Assembly (NCBI GenBank): GCA_017558175.1
Contig: JAFYWH010000087.1
Span: forward strand, 1 to 41,223
Source: Bacteroidaceae bacterium
GTDB lineage: Bacteria > Bacteroidota > Bacteroidia > Bacteroidales > Bacteroidaceae
Length of the DNA stretch: 41,223 nucleotides
Direction: 5' to 3'
Part shown: piece by piece, positions 1,020 through 16,961 of the stretch
Layout of the letters: each line of letters begins with the position of its first letter
How positions within the stretch are numbered: the first letter of the stretch is position 1
Translations under genes and position numbers: made by a program
Notes under the pieces: generated by a model
Told to the model about the DNA's origin: nothing
Databases searched by the model: none
What the model saw: the letters and a program-made list of their open reading frames with translations, nothing else

Positions 1020-3278
1020 TCAAGGTACTACCTCAAAAGCCTTTTCGTAAGATTGTACGCCTGACTCTGTTATTACATCCACCAACAAACGGTAGCGACC
1101 CACTTTTTCTGCTTTCCATGGTTCAGAGGCATATTCTTTGAATGGATAGGATAATGGGGATAATCCCATTGGGCTATACATCGCTCCTTTTGATGGGAGA
1201 GGAGGTCTTTCCTTGTAAGAACGTGTTTTTACAAGGATGGCTCCATCCAAAGCACCATAAGTATATGCTAATGCTTGCCATGCTTTAAGAACCTGTACGG
1301 ACTCTATTTCAAAGGCAGGCATATTAAGTAAATACTCATAATCTGCGCTAGTAAAACGGGTGGTGTCTATAATAATTGGAATGCTACTTTGGGTAGCGCT
1401 AACTCCTCTATTGCTTACGATTTTATATTTAGATTCATTCTTTGCATTGCCATCGGTTTTCGGTGAATCCACTCCGTAGTTTGTAGTTGGGTCGTATGTA
1501 ATATAGAGACCTGGCATGCTCTTTAATATATGGTATAGTGTGAGGTATCCCTTTTCTTCTATTTCTTCCCGGTCGGCATAATTCACACTGTAGAATTCAT
1601 GAGTTGGTTTTGGCTCTTCAGTTTTCAGGCGCGCTTTGACGGTAACATTAGGTAATGTATAGTTTCGCACTTTGTCTTTGCCTGTGGTGTATTGCAGTTC
1701 GAAATCATTGCCTATCGTAACTTCGGTATAGGTATAGCGTGATAACGGAAGGCGGAAGCGTCTGTTGTTTACCAATGCAGGAAAGGTTTCGTCATCTATA
1801 TGGTAGCTGGCGAAATCAGGCTTTTCTTTGGCAGTAATGGCTTGTAGGAAGAATTCCTCTCCTTCCATAAAGTCATCCACGGCCATGCGGAAGCGTGCAG
1901 AGTCGCTAGTTAGTGGGACATCGTAAACAAAATCGTTGACAGTATGATAGGCTACTAGTTGGCCACCTTTTAAGGGGCGTCTGCTCTTTTTCTCAATTTT
2001 TCCGCTGAAACTCATCACTTCTTCTGGCAGATAAGTGTATAATGCCGTGTCCTTGGCAATCGCATCCTTCAAATCGAAACGATGGAAACTTGCGGTAGAT
2101 AGCCATGCCTGCAAGTCGTTGTTGAGTGTAGTTTGATCGGAGGCGTAAAGATGGCTGGGGAAAGGCAATGGCGAGGTATAGTCGGCCATATACTTCAATG
2201 CCATCTCTGCCGAAGTGGAGAGAAGGTCGTTTTCAGCCACGATGCGTGTCATTACTTTAGCTCCTTCGGGCAACGAAGGTATTTCAAAGCGGATGCTTTC
2301 GTTTATCGTTATCTTGTCGGACGCTTGTAGCGTATTCTCTCTTTCCTGTTTTCCGGCAACCGTGTATTGTGAAAGCACCTGATTGTCCTTGTCGGTCAAG
2401 AATAACGTCAGAACTTCTGGCGTTTGTTCCAGCATCAAGATACCGTTTGCTTTAAGTATATTTGTTCGTGTCAGTCCGTTTTGACGGTCGAATGTGTACA
2501 ACATGTACTTACTGATGTCATCGTCACCATTCAGTACTTGATAATTCAGGCGTTTGCCATTCAGGTTCCCTTGTATTTTAGTATCGTTTGTAATCTCTGG
2601 TAATGGGAAACGGTAGTTGTTCCCGTCAATGTTCCCTTCCAAATGGTATCGGACATCCGGTTTTGGAATGAAACGAAGCAGGGCCATACCAGATTCAGAT
2701 GTGTGTACCATGGAGATGGTATCTCCCTTTTCATTCTTTAACAGCAGTTCAGAGCGGATAGGGAAAGTGCAATCATCGGTCAGCCATACGGTTGCCGTTT
2801 GGGGATGGCCGGAAACCAACTTCCCGCCAGAAGGAGCGATAACGCATTTTGCTTCATACACTCGTTCCTCTTTCTTAGGAAATTCTTTCCCAAGCAAGAA
2901 AGGCTGTTGGGCGAAACTTTCGGATGAGAAGTTGCGCATCAGTTTGGTATAGGCACGAAGGTAATATACACCTGCCGGCCATAGATAATCGGTTGGTAGG
3001 TGTGTACTGAAGTAACCTCTTTCTTTGCAGGAAATTTTTTGTCTCAGCAAGACTGAGTCTTTTTCATTGAAACATTCTATGTATAGGTAATTGCTATGAG
3101 GAAGAAAACGTTCACTCGCTATACAGGTTACTTGCCCTTCAAGAGATATGGTATCTCCGGGGAGGTATGCATGTTTCTCTAAGTTCAGGTAAATCTGTTC
3201 TGAACGGAAATCGGTCGGAAGTTGTGCCGAAGCGGTCAATGCACCCAAAAGAGCCCAAAGAAGCAATCTGGTTTTCAT
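1020..3278 (-). CDS. Secreted protein with TonB plug-like C-terminal domain, no beta-barrel
   Basis: 752 aa. Residues 1-18 form a signal peptide (MKTRLLLWALLGALTASAQ). The mature N-terminus (IYLNLEKHAYLPGDTISLEG) resembles the macroglobulin MG2-type domain found in Bacteroidetes envelope proteins. After about residue 540 comes a region resembling a TonB-dependent receptor plug: YHILKSMPGLYITYD, then PIIIDTTRF, IESVQVLKAWQALAYTYG and ALDGAILVKT. The protein ends about 60 residues later, so the roughly 600-aa barrel of a true receptor is absent. A periplasmic or outer-membrane partner role is inferred, not shown. Its promoter is almost a duplicate of the one before the M48-like gene at 15435, which suggests co-regulation. 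It is monocistronic as far as I can see. Confidence 0.75.
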   Translation of the reverse strand: MKTRLLLWALLGALTASAQLPTDFRSEQIYLNLEKHAYLPGDTISLEGQVTCIASERFLPHSNYLYIECFNEKDSVLLRQKISCKERGYFSTHLPTDYLWPAGVYYLRAYTKLMRNFSSESFAQQPFLLGKEFPKKEERVYEAKCVIAPSGGKLVSGHPQTATVWLTDDCTFPIRSELLLKNEKGDTISMVHTSESGMALLRFIPKPDVRYHLEGNIDGNNYRFPLPEITNDTKIQGNLNGKRLNYQVLNGDDDISKYMLYTFDRQNGLTRTNILKANGILMLEQTPEVLTLFLTDKDNQVLSQYTVAGKQERENTLQASDKITINESIRFEIPSLPEGAKVMTRIVAENDLLSTSAEMALKYMADYTSPLPFPSHLYASDQTTLNNDLQAWLSTASFHRFDLKDAIAKDTALYTYLPEEVMSFSGKIEKKSRRPLKGGQLVAYHTVNDFVYDVPLTSDSARFRMAVDDFMEGEEFFLQAITAKEKPDFASYHIDDETFPALVNNRRFRLPLSRYTYTEVTIGNDFELQYTTGKDKVRNYTLPNVTVKARLKTEEPKPTHEFYSVNYADREEIEEKGYLTLYHILKSMPGLYITYDPTTNYGVDSPKTDGNAKNESKYKIVSNRGVSATQSSIPIIIDTTRFTSADYEYLLNMPAFEIESVQVLKAWQALAYTYGALDGAILVKTRSYKERPPLPSKGAMYSPMGLSPLSYPFKEYASEPWKAEKVGRYRLLVDVITESGVQSYEKAFEVVP

Positions 3279-3308: not shown

Positions 3309-3375
3309 CAAAGATAGATAGAGAAATTTACCCAATCAATAGGGAAATCCCTATTTTTTAGTAGGGATTTCCCTA
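3309..3375 (-). promoter_or_regulatory. Promoter with two tandem TAGGG-N4-CCCTA palindromes (copy 1)
   Basis: On the minus strand, in order: distal palindrome TAGGGAAATCCCTA (3375-3362), 8-nt linker, proximal palindrome TAGGGATTTCCCTA (3353-3340), TGATTGGG (3338-3331) containing or abutting the -33 TTG (3339-3337), a 20-nt spacer, and -7 box TATCTTTG (3316-3309). The ATG is 30 nt further on. Taking the start of transcription as 5 nt after the -7 G, the palindromes centre near -42 and -64, typical activator positions. The NarL/LuxR-family regulator NreC recognises a TAGGG-N4-CCCTA site, so a regulator of that class is inferred. Confidence 0.75.
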
Positions 3376-3488
3376 TTGTTTTAATCGCTGAATAAAATAT
3401 TAGTCCTTCATTTCTTTGATATGAGGCTCAAATGATAAAGATAGGCAAAAATAAGTAATATTCCTACGGATTTCCGCTAAAGTGGTGC

Positions 3489-3750
3489 CACCCGTGCCAT
3501 CGGAGGGTAATGTGTTGTGGTTCAGTGTGAAATGGGTGGCACGACTCCTGCAACCGTCTTTGTTTCGTGCCATTTTGAAAACGCCCTGACATTTGGAACA
3601 AAACGCTTAGGCGTTTTACTCAAAACGTCAGGGCGTTTTTTAAAAAGACCGAAAAGACTTGCGGATGGCAGGGAAAAGGAGGTGTTGCAGGAGTCGTGCA
3701 ACCCGCAAAGTGTTGAACTACATTGGATTGTGTGGCTGGTGGCACGGGTG
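3489..3750. repeat. Four-level nested palindrome, also the trkH terminator region
   Basis: Concentric inverted repeats. Outer arms 3489-3499 / 3740-3750 (CACCCGTGCCA, perfect 11 bp). Middle arms 3534-3554 / 3684-3704 (20 of 21 bp). Inner arms 3578-3590 / 3627-3639 (AAAACGCCCTGAC, perfect 13 bp). Core hairpin 3600-3617 (AAAACGC-TTAG-GCGTTTT). The inner part has T-rich flanks and could end trkH transcription. The core matches repeats at 9013-9080 and, more weakly, 19876-19911. Confidence 0.8.
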
Positions 3751-6576: not shown

Positions 6577-8475
6577 TTAGAATGACAACAATACGTTCTC
6601 TATACTTGTTGCGTCCATGCCACAGATTTGATATAGCTCTGCCGGCGTTCCGTGTTGAACGAAACGGTCGGGTATACCAATGCGCTTGACGCTTGGTGTA
6701 TATCCATGGTCGGCCATGTATTCCAATACGGCACTTCCCATACCACCTTTCAATACACCATCCTCGATAGTAACGATGGATTTGAAATTTTGCCCGATTT
6801 CATCGAGGATTTCTTCATCCAATGGCTTCAAGAAACGGAGGTCGTAATGGGCAATGCTCTTGCCTGTCTTGGCTTCGGCAGATGCAATGGCTTCGATGGC
6901 TTCGTTGCCGATAGGGCCAATGGTCAATACGGCAATGTCCTTGCCATCCTTCAACTTTCGGCCTTTGCCTACCTGGATTTCTTCGAATGGACATTCCCAA
7001 TCTACCAACACGCCTCGTCCTCTTGGGTAACGGATGGCGAATGGACCTTGGTTTGGCAATTGGGCCGTATACATCAGCTTCCGCAACTCATGCTCGTTCA
7101 TTGGCGAAGCAATCGTGAGGTTAGGGATGGAACGGAGGTATGCCAAGTCGAAGGCTCCGTGATGGGTCGGTCCGTCTTCGCCTACCAATCCGGCACGGTC
7201 GAGACAGAATACCACGTTCTGCTTGTGGAGGGCCACGTCGTGTATGATGTTGTCGTATGCACGTTGCATGAACGAGGAGTAGATGTTGCAGAAGGGTATC
7301 AAGCCATCTTTGGCCATACCGCCTGAGAAGGTTACGGCATGTCCTTCGGCAATACCTACATCGAATCCTCTGTCCGGCATCGCCTTCATTAATATATTCA
7401 TGGAACAACCCGATGGCATGGCGGGTGTAACGCCTACTATCTTGTCGTTCTGCTTGGCCAATTCCAAGAGTGTGTGACCGAAAACTTCTTGATAGAGTGG
7501 AGGCATACCTTCGGTATCGGCTACGATGCGTTCGCCGGTTTCCTTGTCGAACTTGCCGGGAGCATGCCAAATGGTGGCTGACTTTTCGGCCGGTTCGAAG
7601 CCCTTGCCCTTAGTGGTATGGATATGAAGGAGTTTAGGTCCTTGCATGTTCTTGATGTCTTTCAGGACTTTGGTCAATCCCTTAACATCGTTCCCGTCGA
7701 AAGGACCGAAGTAACGGATGTTCATGCCTTCGAACACGTTCTGTTGTTGGGCAAGCATGGATTTCAAGCTGTTGCTGAAGCGGATGAGGCTCTTCCGACG
7801 ACTTTCGTTCAAGATGCCCCACTTGTTCAGTAGGCATGATATCTTGAAACGGAAGCGGTTGTAGCTTTCCGAAGTTTGCAAGTTCAGCAAATATTGCTTC
7901 ATGCCACCTACACTGCGGTCGATGGCCATGTTGTTGTCGTTCAGGATGATAAGAAGATTGTTCGGCGTTGAGGAGGCATTGTTCAAGCCCTCGAATGCCA
8001 AACCTCCGCTCATCGAACCATCGCCGATGACGGCCACTACCTGACGGTCGTCTTCCCCTTTTTGCTTGGCTGCTACGGCCATCCCCAATGCCGCGGAGAT
8101 GGAGTTCGAAGCGTGTCCGCAAGTAAAGGTATCGTATTCGCTTTCCTTAGGAGAAGGGAAGGGACGGATGCCGTTCAACTTTCGGTTAGTATGGAAAGCG
8201 TCTCTACGGCCAGTCAGAATCTTATGGCCATAGGCTTGGTGTCCAACATCCCAAACGATGCGGTCGTACGGGGTGTTGAATATATAATGTAAGGCCACGG
8301 TCAGTTCCACCACGCCAAGGCTTGATGCAAAGTGACCGGGGTTGCACGATAGTTCATCGATGATCTTTTGCCTAAGCTCCTTACATACTTCGGGCAATTG
8401 CTCGGCTTTCAGCTTGCGCAAGTCCTCTGGTGTGTCAATGCTTTGAAGCAATTTATATGAATTATCTGTTTCCAT
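6577..8475 (-). CDS. dxs: 1-deoxy-D-xylulose-5-phosphate synthase
   Basis: 632 aa, typical length. Makes DXP from pyruvate and glyceraldehyde-3-phosphate using thiamine diphosphate, the first step of the MEP isoprenoid pathway, in the cytoplasm. Visible landmarks are [20 protein letters not shown] at the N-terminus, [13 protein letters not shown], and the ThDP/Mg motif [17 protein letters not shown]. The C-terminal transketolase half has the [13 protein letters not shown] region, [15 protein letters not shown] and RYPRGRG. It is the first gene of operon dxs-trkA-trkH, with a -7 box at 8509-8501. The pairing of an isoprenoid enzyme with K+ uptake is presumably co-transcription rather than shared function. 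Confidence 0.96.
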
Positions 8476-15000: not shown

Positions 15001-15346
15001 TCGTACATTGGGAGTGGTGACGCCTTATCGAAGTCAGATAGCCTTGATTCGTAAGGAGTTGCAAGCCAAGGGTATTCCTGCTTTGCTTGATATCTCTGTC
15101 GATACGGTGGAGCGTTATCAAGGAAGCGAGCGCGATGTCATCATCTATTCGTTCTGTGTAAACCATCGTTATCAGCTGAAGTTCTTGCCTAACTTGACAG
15201 AAGAAAATGGGGTACAGATAGACCGCAAGCTCAATGTGGCCTTGACTCGTGCCCGGAAACGGATGATTGTGATGGGAGTGGCGGAGATTCTCAAGGAAAA
15301 TCCTATCTATCGACGACTGTTGGATGCTTGTATTTGGCAGAAATAG
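12011..15346 (+). CDS. Dna2-like PD-(D/E)XK nuclease fused to a superfamily 1B helicase
   Basis: 1111 aa from the ATG at 12011; a TTG at 11993 is in frame but overlaps murF-alr. The N-terminal half contains a RecB/Dna2-type nuclease core: GRLDY with D354, then IEMKSG with E365 and K367. The C-terminal half is an SF1B (Upf1/Dna2) helicase: Walker A GPPGTGKT with K717, DEAT at 829-832, GDHKQLPAV, SVDTVERYQGSERDVII, and LNVALTRARKRM. I see no CxxC-type iron-sulfur cysteines after the nuclease, unlike many Dna2/AddB nucleases. Probable role: end processing or flap removal in replication and repair, inferred from the domain order. It is last in the GSCFA-murF/alr operon. Its TAG stop is also the first three bases of a regulatory palindrome. 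Confidence 0.85.
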   Translation: MKEEVREIYLNLWALCKDVERPLRHRYRLLRDSFERIAREQMQNVALQATDLAARINYLGNQFSLDREQMNALHTFRLTSNDVMNRRKEPIAEEFLRDVRSVAEAYSVILYTAIPKELDEILPKKQWKSSMKREKNALVRRIRVCFDYADDEFLYVHPVDEVSDDYWKVRYNLLGVNDEFTEGISDFWRHAQLNLLDVKLNEDGTYTPSFIVLEPDYLIDISSLAECYRDYGSHPANYLMSRLVPIDNARPLLLGNIANLFLDEWIFAKEEEPDYMTCMKKAFRQYPIELAACEELDDAKNGPMFFDDCRMHFEHIRQTVTETFNDPGYKLDKSDAVLEPSYICEALGIQGRLDYMQRDMSSFIEMKSGKADEFSIKGKKEPKENNRVQMLLYMAVLEFSMGVDRRNQHPYLLYTRYPLLYPARASWAQVRRIIALRNRIVASEYGTQMHNHPSYVAQLLAQINPVTLNEKKMQGPLWERFLAPSISRFQKQLNSLDDLEKTYLYILYNFITKELYTSKSGDVESESKTGASTLWLSTLDEKREAGEILYDLRIINNQASLPHKATITLQIPEYDEPFLPNFRPGDVVVLYERNRAEDNVTNKLVIKGNIEWLSATEVCIRLRASQRNLSIFPSESLYAMEHDYMDATFRSMYLGLSAFMNANQERRDLLLGRRKASFDEEQLAKNAHFIDDFERVATKAVAAKDYFLLVGPPGTGKTSRALRRMVEKFYAQPETQILLLAYTNRAVDEICSSLSAIAPQVDYIRIGSELSCDERYRDRLVENVLAPCRNRREVRQRLSDCRVYVGTVASLSSKTELFKLKRFDVAIVDEATQILEPQLLWLLSAKASDGKDSVGKFILIGDHKQLPAVVLQSKEESEVFDERLRQIGLLNLKDSLFERLYRFHLSEGDSLALDMLCRQGRMHPAVASFPNQAFYAGRLEAVGLPHQLEEISTPVVFIPSQRDADGLSGKTNRYEARMVADWAERVWKESPDTFDANRTLGVVTPYRSQIALIRKELQAKGIPALLDISVDTVERYQGSERDVIIYSFCVNHRYQLKFLPNLTEENGVQIDRKLNVALTRARKRMIVMGVAEILKENPIYRRLLDACIWQK

Positions 15347-15409
15347 GGAAATCCCTACCGAAGAATAGGGATTTTCCCTTGATTGGGGAATTTCCCTCCC
15401 TTAAATTTG
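15344..15409 (+). promoter_or_regulatory. Promoter with tandem TAGGG-N4-CCCTA palindromes (copy 2)
   Basis: Distal palindrome TAGGGAAATCCCTA (15344-15357), 8-nt linker, proximal TAGGGATTTTCCCTT (15366-15380, centre one base longer), TGATTGGG (15380-15387) overlapping -33 TTG (15379-15381), a 20-nt spacer, and -7 box TAAATTTG (15402-15409). A third palindrome GGGAATTTCCC (15386-15396) sits in the spacer. Order, orientation and spacings repeat those at 3375-3309. Confidence 0.75.
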
Positions 15410-15434: not shown

Positions 15435-16961
15435 ATGAAAAGAACATGGGTAGCATTGGGACTTTTATGTATGGCTTGTAGCACGCTGATGGCGCAAAAA
15501 CCGCTTACTGAAAACTTGGGTATTGCGGGTAATATCAAGTCCGATTATGTTTGGAGAGAAAATTCTTTTTTCGAAGAAGGAACACCTTGTACATTGCAGT
15601 TTGTTACGAAACTGAAAAATCCGGCCAAGAATGAGGACAAGTATCAGGTTGTATTGTTTGGAACGCACCAATTTTATATCCCTTTGGATGAATTGGGTAC
15701 ATATTTTACGGCTGAACCCAAGGATAAGAATGCCTTTTGGGCTATGCTTCTCATGAAAAAATATCCGGATGCATTTAAAAAAGATAAGTATGCCTCGTTA
15801 CGCCAAGAACAACGTTTGGAAGCAGAACAATATTTGTCTGAATTGAAGAAGAACAATCTGTTTTACAACGATGCGGCCATTGAGGACTATTTGCAATGTC
15901 TTTTACTAGACATGATGCCAGACAAGCGGATTTTGGAACGTGAAATAGGTGTTCCGGTTGTTCGATTGTTGAAATCGGAAGCGCCAGACATCATGATGCT
16001 TGGCAATGGTGTTCTATTGATATCTACAGGGATGTTGGCAGCTTTGGATACCGAACAGGAAATGAAGGCGTTGATGCTTCGTGAAATGTCTCACTATATG
16101 CTTGACCACGCTTTGGTCACTATCCAGCAGAATATCACTCGTGCCAATAGGGCTGCTTTTTGGGGAAGTGTGATTGATGGAGTTGTGGCTGCAACCGAGC
16201 GTACTTTGTATGAACGATATGATTTTTATCAACCAGGCTTGTTGTTTGCTACAAATGATGTTGTTCAGTCGTTGGTGAATTTGAACATTGCCCGACGAAT
16301 GGGTTTGGACTATGCGCCTAAATTGGAGACTGAAGCAGATAAGGTGGCTATTTCTTATATGGAGTGCATGGGAGAGTCAAAAGATGCTTTGGCATCGGCT
16401 TTACATAAGCTGAACGATTACTATCTACGTGAAAATGATGTCAGTACATTGTCTAAGTATGGAGCCTATGGCACATTGGAGGAGCGCTTGAAAGGTATGC
16501 CGAAACCGGACCTCCAATTGGTAGACCGTGATTTCTTGGTGAAGATGAGAGGTGTAGTCAGCTTCGAAGCATCTATGCAGGATTACCATAAAAAATATCG
16601 GAATGCCCGTCTGTTGGCTATGAAGAATATCGATAACAATTTGGCTTGTGCAGACGATTTCTTGATGGTGGCAAGAGGAATGATGAAGCAAACCAATACC
16701 TCGGAAAGCAATGCAGAGTGCCTGTTGTATTTGGATAAGGCAGATATGGTGTCGGAGGTGGAAGATGTGAACATTACCAAGATGCGTATCTTGCTGATGC
16801 TTCGGGAGAATATGACCATCAATGCCGTGGATATGATAAAGAAATATCAAGCGCAACTGGATGCATTATATCAGCAACCGCATACGGATGAGGATGCAGA
16901 ATGGATTACTGCTGAGCATCTTTGGGCCGATCAACTATTGGAAAGATTATACTTGAATTGA
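15435..16961 (+). CDS. Secreted M48-like protein with altered zinc motif (RExxH)
   Basis: 508 aa. Signal peptide about residues 1-20 (MKRTWVALGLLCMACSTLMA); a cysteine at residue 15 could also suggest a lipoprotein, but the context is weak. The centre resembles an M48 metallopeptidase: IMMLGNGVLLISTGMLAALD, then LREMSHYMLDHAL where HExxH is expected, then ETEADKVAISYM, which supplies the third zinc ligand and the conserved EAD. The first histidine is replaced by R216 (codon CGT at 16080-16082, one base from CAT); E217 and H220 remain. Catalytic activity is therefore doubtful, and a chaperone or scaffold role is possible. Its promoter duplicates that of the gene at 1020-3278. Confidence 0.75.
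   Translation: MKRTWVALGLLCMACSTLMAQKPLTENLGIAGNIKSDYVWRENSFFEEGTPCTLQFVTKLKNPAKNEDKYQVVLFGTHQFYIPLDELGTYFTAEPKDKNAFWAMLLMKKYPDAFKKDKYASLRQEQRLEAEQYLSELKKNNLFYNDAAIEDYLQCLLLDMMPDKRILEREIGVPVVRLLKSEAPDIMMLGNGVLLISTGMLAALDTEQEMKALMLREMSHYMLDHALVTIQQNITRANRAAFWGSVIDGVVAATERTLYERYDFYQPGLLFATNDVVQSLVNLNIARRMGLDYAPKLETEADKVAISYMECMGESKDALASALHKLNDYYLRENDVSTLSKYGAYGTLEERLKGMPKPDLQLVDRDFLVKMRGVVSFEASMQDYHKKYRNARLLAMKNIDNNLACADDFLMVARGMMKQTNTSESNAECLLYLDKADMVSEVEDVNITKMRILLMLRENMTINAVDMIKKYQAQLDALYQQPHTDEDAEWITAEHLWADQLLERLYLN

Follow-up and report, generated by a model that had tools for sequence, protein, structure and literature searches.

A tandem-palindrome promoter element and a candidate envelope regulon in Bacteroidaceae

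We analyzed a window of 41,223 nt (the whole stretch of contig JAFYWH010000087.1 from a Bacteroidaceae bacterium) in which two distant genes are each preceded by a composite promoter element, referred to as copy 1 and copy 2. The features are listed below; predicted centres near -64 and -42 follow from taking +1 about 5 nt past the -7 box.

1020 to 3278, minus strand: target 1, a 752-aa exported protein with a TonB plug domain (PF07715, Pfam E=1.7e-6)
3309 to 3316, minus strand: copy 1 -7 box TATCTTTG; the distal palindrome begins 59 nt upstream
14 nt, minus strand: copy 1 gap from TGATTGGG to the -7 box
3331 to 3338, minus strand: copy 1 TGATTGGG, in the region of the -33 element and common to both window copies
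3340 to 3353, minus strand: copy 1 proximal palindrome TAGGGATTTCCCTA, predicted centre about -42, 22 bp from the distal one
8 nt, minus strand: copy 1 linker between the palindromes
3362 to 3375, minus strand: copy 1 distal palindrome TAGGGAAATCCCTA, perfect, predicted centre about -64
15344 to 15357, plus strand: copy 2 distal palindrome TAGGGAAATCCCTA
8 nt, plus strand: copy 2 linker between the palindromes
15366 to 15379, plus strand: copy 2 proximal palindrome TAGGGATTTTCCCT, imperfect
15380 to 15387, plus strand: copy 2 TGATTGGG, overlapping a further degenerate repeat GGGGAATTTCCCT
14 nt, plus strand: copy 2 gap from TGATTGGG to the -7 box
15402 to 15409, plus strand: copy 2 -7 box TAAATTTG; the distal palindrome begins 58 nt upstream
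15435 to 16961, plus strand: target 2, a 508-aa exported M48-like protein (Pfam E=1.9e-6)

An earlier note on this DNA had reported these two composites as a promoter shared by two envelope genes, and their positions, 8-nt linkers and 14-nt gaps to the -7 box were confirmed, as was the export of both the TonB-plug and the M48-like protein. Its claim that the same parts recur in both copies held for order and spacing, but copy 2 has an imperfect second palindrome, and TGATTGGG, although common to the two copies, was rejected as a general part of the motif, being absent from the family-wide motif in an alignment of 72 promoters. The description as shared by two genes was too narrow, since the regulon extends beyond two genes; copy 1 itself is not conserved in the orthologs inspected.

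Target 1 has an MG2-type N-terminal region, as read by eye, and a solved-structure search with this protein found nothing. At E<=1e-30 the protein occurred in only 4 of 60 genus genomes, its own included. The paired element was absent upstream of both inspected orthologs (G008 and G005, 52% and 44% identical) and of two paralogs in the own genome; a third relative, in G032, is only a fragment and lay outside the ortholog inspection. Conserved regulation of the TonB-plug gene was thus not supported, and copy 1 looks, from these comparisons, like a lineage-specific, local recruitment into an old regulon. Behind copy 1, at 3480-3700 of the window, inspection by eye showed a strong hairpin with a T-run after it (AAAACGCC...GGCGTTTT), enclosed by inverted copies of a sequence resembling CACGACTCCTGCAAC; it is probably a terminator or a small repeat. 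An Rfam search of the window gave no match.

The helicase gene upstream of copy 2 ends at 15346, and its stop codon is the first TAG of the distal palindrome. Relatives of the M48-like protein were found in L049 (65% identical) and in G002 (L220; 53% identical), and the paired element is present before the relatives in L049, L055 and G002. Judged from these loci, copy 2, unlike copy 1, is conserved upstream of relatives of its target gene. The HEXXH signature is absent from the M48-like protein and from its relatives in L049 and L220; an active protease was therefore rejected, and these proteins are likely to form a conserved, non-catalytic pseudo-protease family.

The element was far more frequent in the genome than expected. 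In the window, TAGGGAWWTCCCTA occurs exactly three times, versus 0.45 occurrences expected even allowing up to 2 mismatches. The assembly of the own genome (G000; 2.25 Mb, 86% complete) holds six perfect TAGGGANNTCCCTA palindromes at four places, compared with about 0.04 per genome expected from base composition and 0 for the reversed control, and at each of these places a second perfect or near-perfect copy begins 21-22 bp off. On contig C100, the pair lies between prmA (a ribosomal-protein methyltransferase gene, recognized by eye) and a divergent exported gene of the DDLYFIPKKK family that is truncated by the contig end; the -7 box lies at 59 toward the exported gene and at 52 toward prmA, and prmA was rejected as the target on this basis. 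On contig C150, three palindrome copies in 21-22-bp steps precede the gene of an exported 303-aa protein, and the box lies at 79 nt from the first of them, one 21-bp step beyond 58.

Among the loci collected, the architecture consists of two TAGGGA-WW-TCCCTA palindromes spaced by two helical turns (22 bp), with a third copy in some promoters. We read the exact pair with the exact 8-nt linker in L001-L121, merging copies of one genome only where 75 bases were identical; pairs with other linkers lie outside the resulting 94 distinct readings. In 76 of these, TAnnTTTG was found at 58 nt (61 readings) or 59 nt (15 readings), and the 72-nt stretch searched held only four other such boxes, two of them at 81, that is, 59+22. 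The 18 readings lacking this box come from Ignavibacteria (eight), from a viral contig (two), from L069, which has a near-box, and from symmetric or triple sites read in reverse or from an outer copy (L001, L004, L055 and L067). In the triple sites (C150, L055 and L067), the extra copies lie upstream in 21-22-bp steps, and the nearest pair is still at 58/59. The alignment of 72 promoters shows conservation in both halves of the distal palindrome and only a weak T/G preference at offsets 37-42, where a -33 TTTG was sought. In the available text of a transcriptome study, TAnnTTTG at -7 is the consensus of the Bacteroidetes primary sigma factor, sigma-ABfr (PMC7366714).

We tested this geometry independently with the DDLYFIPKK gene of P. 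vulgatus and 29 genomes, nearly all chosen for showing no exact pair; three of them (G017, G064 and G216) have an exact-pattern match elsewhere in the genome, and the loci compared have none. Orthologs were present in 26 of the 29 genomes, giving 27 loci, and a degenerate pair with 1-5 mismatches was found at 26 of these (25 of the 26 genomes), with 0/27 for the reversed-sequence control; the sole locus without one is that of G071. The box of the degenerate pairs lies at 58 (57 in one locus), and the second site in genomes of genus g27 is mostly TGGGGAAAAT. Since the spacing is kept at 26 of 27 diverged loci, sequence comparison indicates that the element is old in Bacteroidaceae and that its spacing is under selection.

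The exact pair was detected in 26 of 36 genomes of the same genus (Phocaeicola), the own included, in 23 of 301 Bacteroidaceae genomes, from 5 of 30 genera, and in none of 24 genomes of other families; reversed-pattern controls gave 0 in every genome listed. A GTDB-wide scan of about 85,000 species genomes returned 66 stretches, 63 of which are titled Bacteroidales or Bacteroidetes; of the remaining three, two are contigs from a single Ignavibacteria MAG and the third comes from a "Clostridia" MAG. For degenerate sites, we used a sequence-only promoter model (A1/R1) built from 72 of 73 reference promoters (L154 was omitted as misaligned) after removal of near-duplicates with at least 62 of 72 bases equal; some promoters of the ortholog comparison were later included in it. 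Both window copies belong to the R1 training set and matched it at C41:3308-3377 (copy 1, E=1.3e-14) and C41:15341-15411 (copy 2, E=5.9e-14). Model searches scored the best 138-150 candidates per genome, so that hits and absences are lower bounds, and the training promoters include several from the genomes of the seven-genome search and those of G060, G062 and G088 in the genus and family search, which covered 20 of the 24 other-family genomes and a minority of the same-family genomes. Within these best 138-150 candidates per genome, matches at E<=1e-3 were found in at least 11 of 16 other Bacteroidaceae genera, or at least 8 of 13 when the training genera G060, G062 and G088 are left out, and in 0 of 20 genomes of other Bacteroidales families; both matches in G089 lack the distal palindrome (model positions 20-72). 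At E<1e-4, the own genome holds at least four promoter-type matches, plus two opposite-strand readings, and the other six hold at least three (P. vulgatus G011), three (G002), seven (G216), two (G202), three (G064) and three (G067); G216 additionally has a box-less pair, read twice.

Several of the outlying stretches have features of their own. In the Ignavibacteria MAG JAUYAB01 (L037 and L074), four exact palindromes and near-copies are arrayed in tandem, mostly in 22-bp steps, and no TAnnTTTG was found at the offsets searched; the same cis-element may be used there with another promoter type. The "Clostridia" contig L067 (JAFOCB010000002.1) repeats itself with a 5010-base offset, with motif triples at 1879-1936 and 6889-6946, and represents a 5-kb circular mobile element binned with this MAG, encoding Rep_trans-like and SSB-like proteins (both weak matches). 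It carries three perfect palindromes 22 bp apart followed by a TATATTTG box at 59, as in the host regulon, and no near match to it was found in a phage collection. In an IMG/VR viral contig (L121:10905-11583), a perfect pair lies upstream of a gene with an MjaI restriction-endonuclease domain match, with no -7 box at 58/59.

The proteins encoded downstream form 19 families, 16 of which look exported or lipidated by a simple rule; this rule is lenient, and 42% of background ORFs, a set that contains spurious ORFs, also pass it. Three families fail it: that of the mobile element, and two whose first listed ORF is more than 320 nt away. The targets include DUF4476 lipoproteins with a BamE-like part and DKNYY proteins (DUF4476 and DKNYY well above the curated Pfam cut-offs), glycine-zipper-like lipoproteins and MG2-like proteins (the glycine zipper, MG2 and BamE matches being below those cut-offs), SIMPL proteins, and a family with the sequence RFLTD(R/K)MAYEL, for which a solved-structure search found nothing. 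Two of the most widespread target families, the A2 family (L006, L219, L221 and L225) and the DDLYFIPKK family (L099:1634-3037), matched no Pfam or NCBIfam model. Long Ser/Arg/Gly- or Pro/Arg-rich tails were observed in both, several of them ending in basic RTR or RR. The DDLYFIPKK family has an OmpP1/FadL-like gene as neighbour, as judged by eye. Outside the 19 families, an OmpA-domain gene follows a weaker model match (L285); the promoter-type match at 2125368 in G216 has no obvious target within 1.1 kb, and that at 2091603 in G064 has no ORF longer than 55 aa within 390 nt. Because the envelope roles of several target families are well established in other Gram-negatives, we refer to an envelope regulon. 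Its presumed function is assigned through guilt by export.

Taken together, these results supported the earlier interpretation in its main claims, namely promoter alignment, exported targets, regulon scale and conservation. The fixed position of the -7 box argues against placement of the pair at random sites, which the earlier note had named as the finding that would speak against it; in the own genome and its relatives, the pair is promoter-aligned, conserved across Bacteroidaceae and near absent elsewhere, and its downstream genes mostly encode exported proteins. The regulon had been called undescribed, and no account of it was found in the literature searched, where the 14-mer palindrome had 0 matches; likewise, the TAGGG motif does not appear in the available main texts of B. 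thetaiotaomicron transcriptome, iModulon and regulon papers (PMC7366714, PMC10994844, PMC12596196 and PMC3878776).

We propose that the motif very probably marks an activator-type promoter regulon. The explanation that we favor overall is an activator-dependent primary-sigma promoter serving a small envelope regulon, with a candidate reader that is probably of the NarL/LuxR type. Dimers of a homodimeric regulator would occupy the paired sites next to each other on the same DNA face, and the proximal dimer would replace the weak -33 element and contact RNA polymerase, so that an envelope signal would turn on envelope-maintenance genes. These genes would encode undescribed exported proteins whose tails are rich in Ser and Arg (one has a FadL/OmpP1-like neighbour), lipoproteins of the DUF4476/BamE-like and glycine-zipper-like kinds, the M48-like pseudo-protease and SIMPL. 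Centres near -64 and -42 would favor activation over repression.

The assignment of the reader to the NarL/LuxR (GerE) type is probable on the basis of site arrangement and sequence: tandem dimers near -42 are typical of NarL-family activators, and the half-sites match the NreC box. For BvgA, UhpA and DosR, tandem dimers sit upstream of -35 at a spacing of about 22 bp, with the proximal dimer near -42; sites in this arrangement were found here, with the +1 position inferred from the box. The own genome encodes two clear GerE proteins (L122 and L123) in addition to several weaker TPR or sigma-like matches. L122 and its P. vulgatus counterpart L161, members of the orphan group that we designate A, both match Pfam GerE, but at E values up to 0.1 a Response_reg domain was detected neither in L161 (read from the second start) nor in L122 (about 20 N-terminal residues missing); among solved chains, the group A HTH is closest to VraR and a response-regulator DNA-binding domain. 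Full-length group A proteins were found in the own genome, G011, G216, G064, G002, G067 and G202, and in 13 of 16 other Bacteroidaceae genera.

The link of group A to the motif is less regular. In G258 (L089/L294), a group A gene follows prmA and has a motif promoter about 1 kb away, and in G060 one lies on the same contig as two motif sites, 9-12 kb away. No motif was seen near 21 other group A loci (about 1.5 kb on each side), and the group A gene of G258 and a LytTR-like pair in G216 were the only cases of autoregulation or linkage seen among the candidate regulators. Group A is present in G070, G071 and G074, which have no model match among the best 138-150 candidates per genome. Within the family, full-length group A occurs in 10 of 11 motif-positive versus 3 of 5 motif-negative genera (hand-computed one-sided Fisher p ~0.2, not significant). 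Outside the family, group A had no match at E<1e-25; a full-length relative occurs in G056 (L309, 41% over 193 aa), weaker full-length matches in G040 and G050 (38% and 33%), and HTH-only relatives in G042 and G054. The model search found no motif match in G056, G040 or G050 among the best 138-150 candidates per genome, and because a group A-like protein exists in G056, we slightly lowered the candidacy of group A. Group A itself is thus the leading candidate, put forward tentatively and on circumstantial grounds.

It is possible that the same architecture is read by another dimeric factor, such as a GerE protein of group B or C, a TPR-anchored LuxR protein, or an unrelated activator or repressor, since the palindrome alone names no regulator family. 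Groups B and C, which are likewise widespread and whose genes adjoin those of hemerythrin-like proteins and mnmA-like genes, respectively (both by eye), occur in P. vulgatus (G011), G216 and G064, but are absent among the GerE matches of the own genome (86% complete). G083 has promoter-type sites without full-length group A and retains a short ORF whose HTH resembles that of group B. Against this reading, group B fits five of the nine compared loci of other families best, although the model search found no motif in those families. A repressor would suit the predicted centres less well than an activator.

A LytTR-type response regulator is an unlikely reader. Such regulators bind repeats about two helical turns apart, genes for a sensor kinase and a LytTR-type response regulator (a LytS/LytTR-like pair, by eye) adjoin the target at 2135353 in G216, and related response regulators were found in all seven genomes searched, the own one at C53. 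However, both halves of the distal palindrome are conserved, from which we expect a symmetric dimer rather than direct repeats alone; the G216 neighbour shares no more than 36-40% identity with its best matches in the six other genomes; and the C53-type pair has no motif in the scanned loci. Only in G216 does a LytTR gene stand beside a target; when the regulator queries were compared with the 980 ORFs in the retrieved loci, no further LytTR match appeared. A chance or passive origin (a terminator stem, a family of repeats, or a mobile insertion near genes) has the symmetry of the palindromes and the box-less four-copy Ignavibacteria arrays on its side, but is practically negligible and was rejected, on sequence grounds, given the counts relative to expectation, the zero reversed controls, the fixed box position and the spacing kept in diverged orthologs.

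Bacteroidaceae are major gut bacteria. How they sense envelope damage is poorly known, and the recent work, in its available text, concerns ECF sigma factors. From a short, sharply defined cis-element with fixed geometry, the targets in any Bacteroidaceae genome can be listed and a reporter designed, and the regulator can be approached directly; the element also links exported families that lack a Pfam or NCBIfam model. Beyond the activator-dependent promoter that we favor, a more far-reaching and rather doubtful reading is a dedicated Bacteroidaceae envelope-homeostasis regulon separate from the ECF sigma routes and driven by a LuxR-type orphan activator that lacks a functional receiver domain; the 5-kb element would have adopted the promoter of this regulon. 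If so, the regulon would be the Gram-negative equivalent of Lia/Vra and Rcs responses and would control exported proteins, most of them undescribed, whose basic tails are rich in Ser and Arg, and the circular element with its three perfect sites would sense the envelope state of its host.

Compared with known systems, the proposed promoter resembles those of BvgA, UhpA and DosR in its side-by-side dimers on one DNA face, its proximal site overlapping the -35/-33 region and its optional upstream extras, but it differs in sequence, in its Bacteroidetes -7 promoter and in a candidate regulator with no detected receiver domain. VraR/LiaR and Rcs are LuxR-type regulators that serve the envelope, and VraR is the nearest solved chain to the candidate HTH; the similarity is confined to the HTH, and neither a kinase nor a LiaF partner was identified for the candidate. 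The half-sites of the staphylococcal NreC box, which belongs to a NarL/LuxR-type regulator, are TAGGG-N4-CCCTA, and the palindrome found here matches them; unlike in the NreC box, two sites lie 22 bp apart. NreC is described, in the available text, as binding a GC-rich palindromic sequence (PMC5694512, PMC8139620), and it differs in phylum, promoter type and targets (nitrate respiration versus exported proteins). Among gut Bacteroidales, a P. vulgatus fitness study reports, in its available text, the ECF-based envelope regulons EcfO-Reo and CirYZ (PMC13114119), which are likewise envelope-directed stress regulons of the same bacteria; these are ECF sigma factors, whereas the promoters described here combine a primary-sigma -7 box with activator sites, and an ECF sigma regulon (EcfO, CirY) does not fit the standard TAnnTTTG box. 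Cur (BT4338) of B. thetaiotaomicron, too, is a Bacteroides activator with a palindrome-defined regulon, namely the 22-bp wwwTATGTTnTAnAACATAwww with sugar-use targets in the available text (PMC3878776), but motif and regulon are different; the Cur/Crp palindrome TATGTTnTAnAACATA differs from the consensus found here, which therefore does not fit a Cur/Crp regulon.
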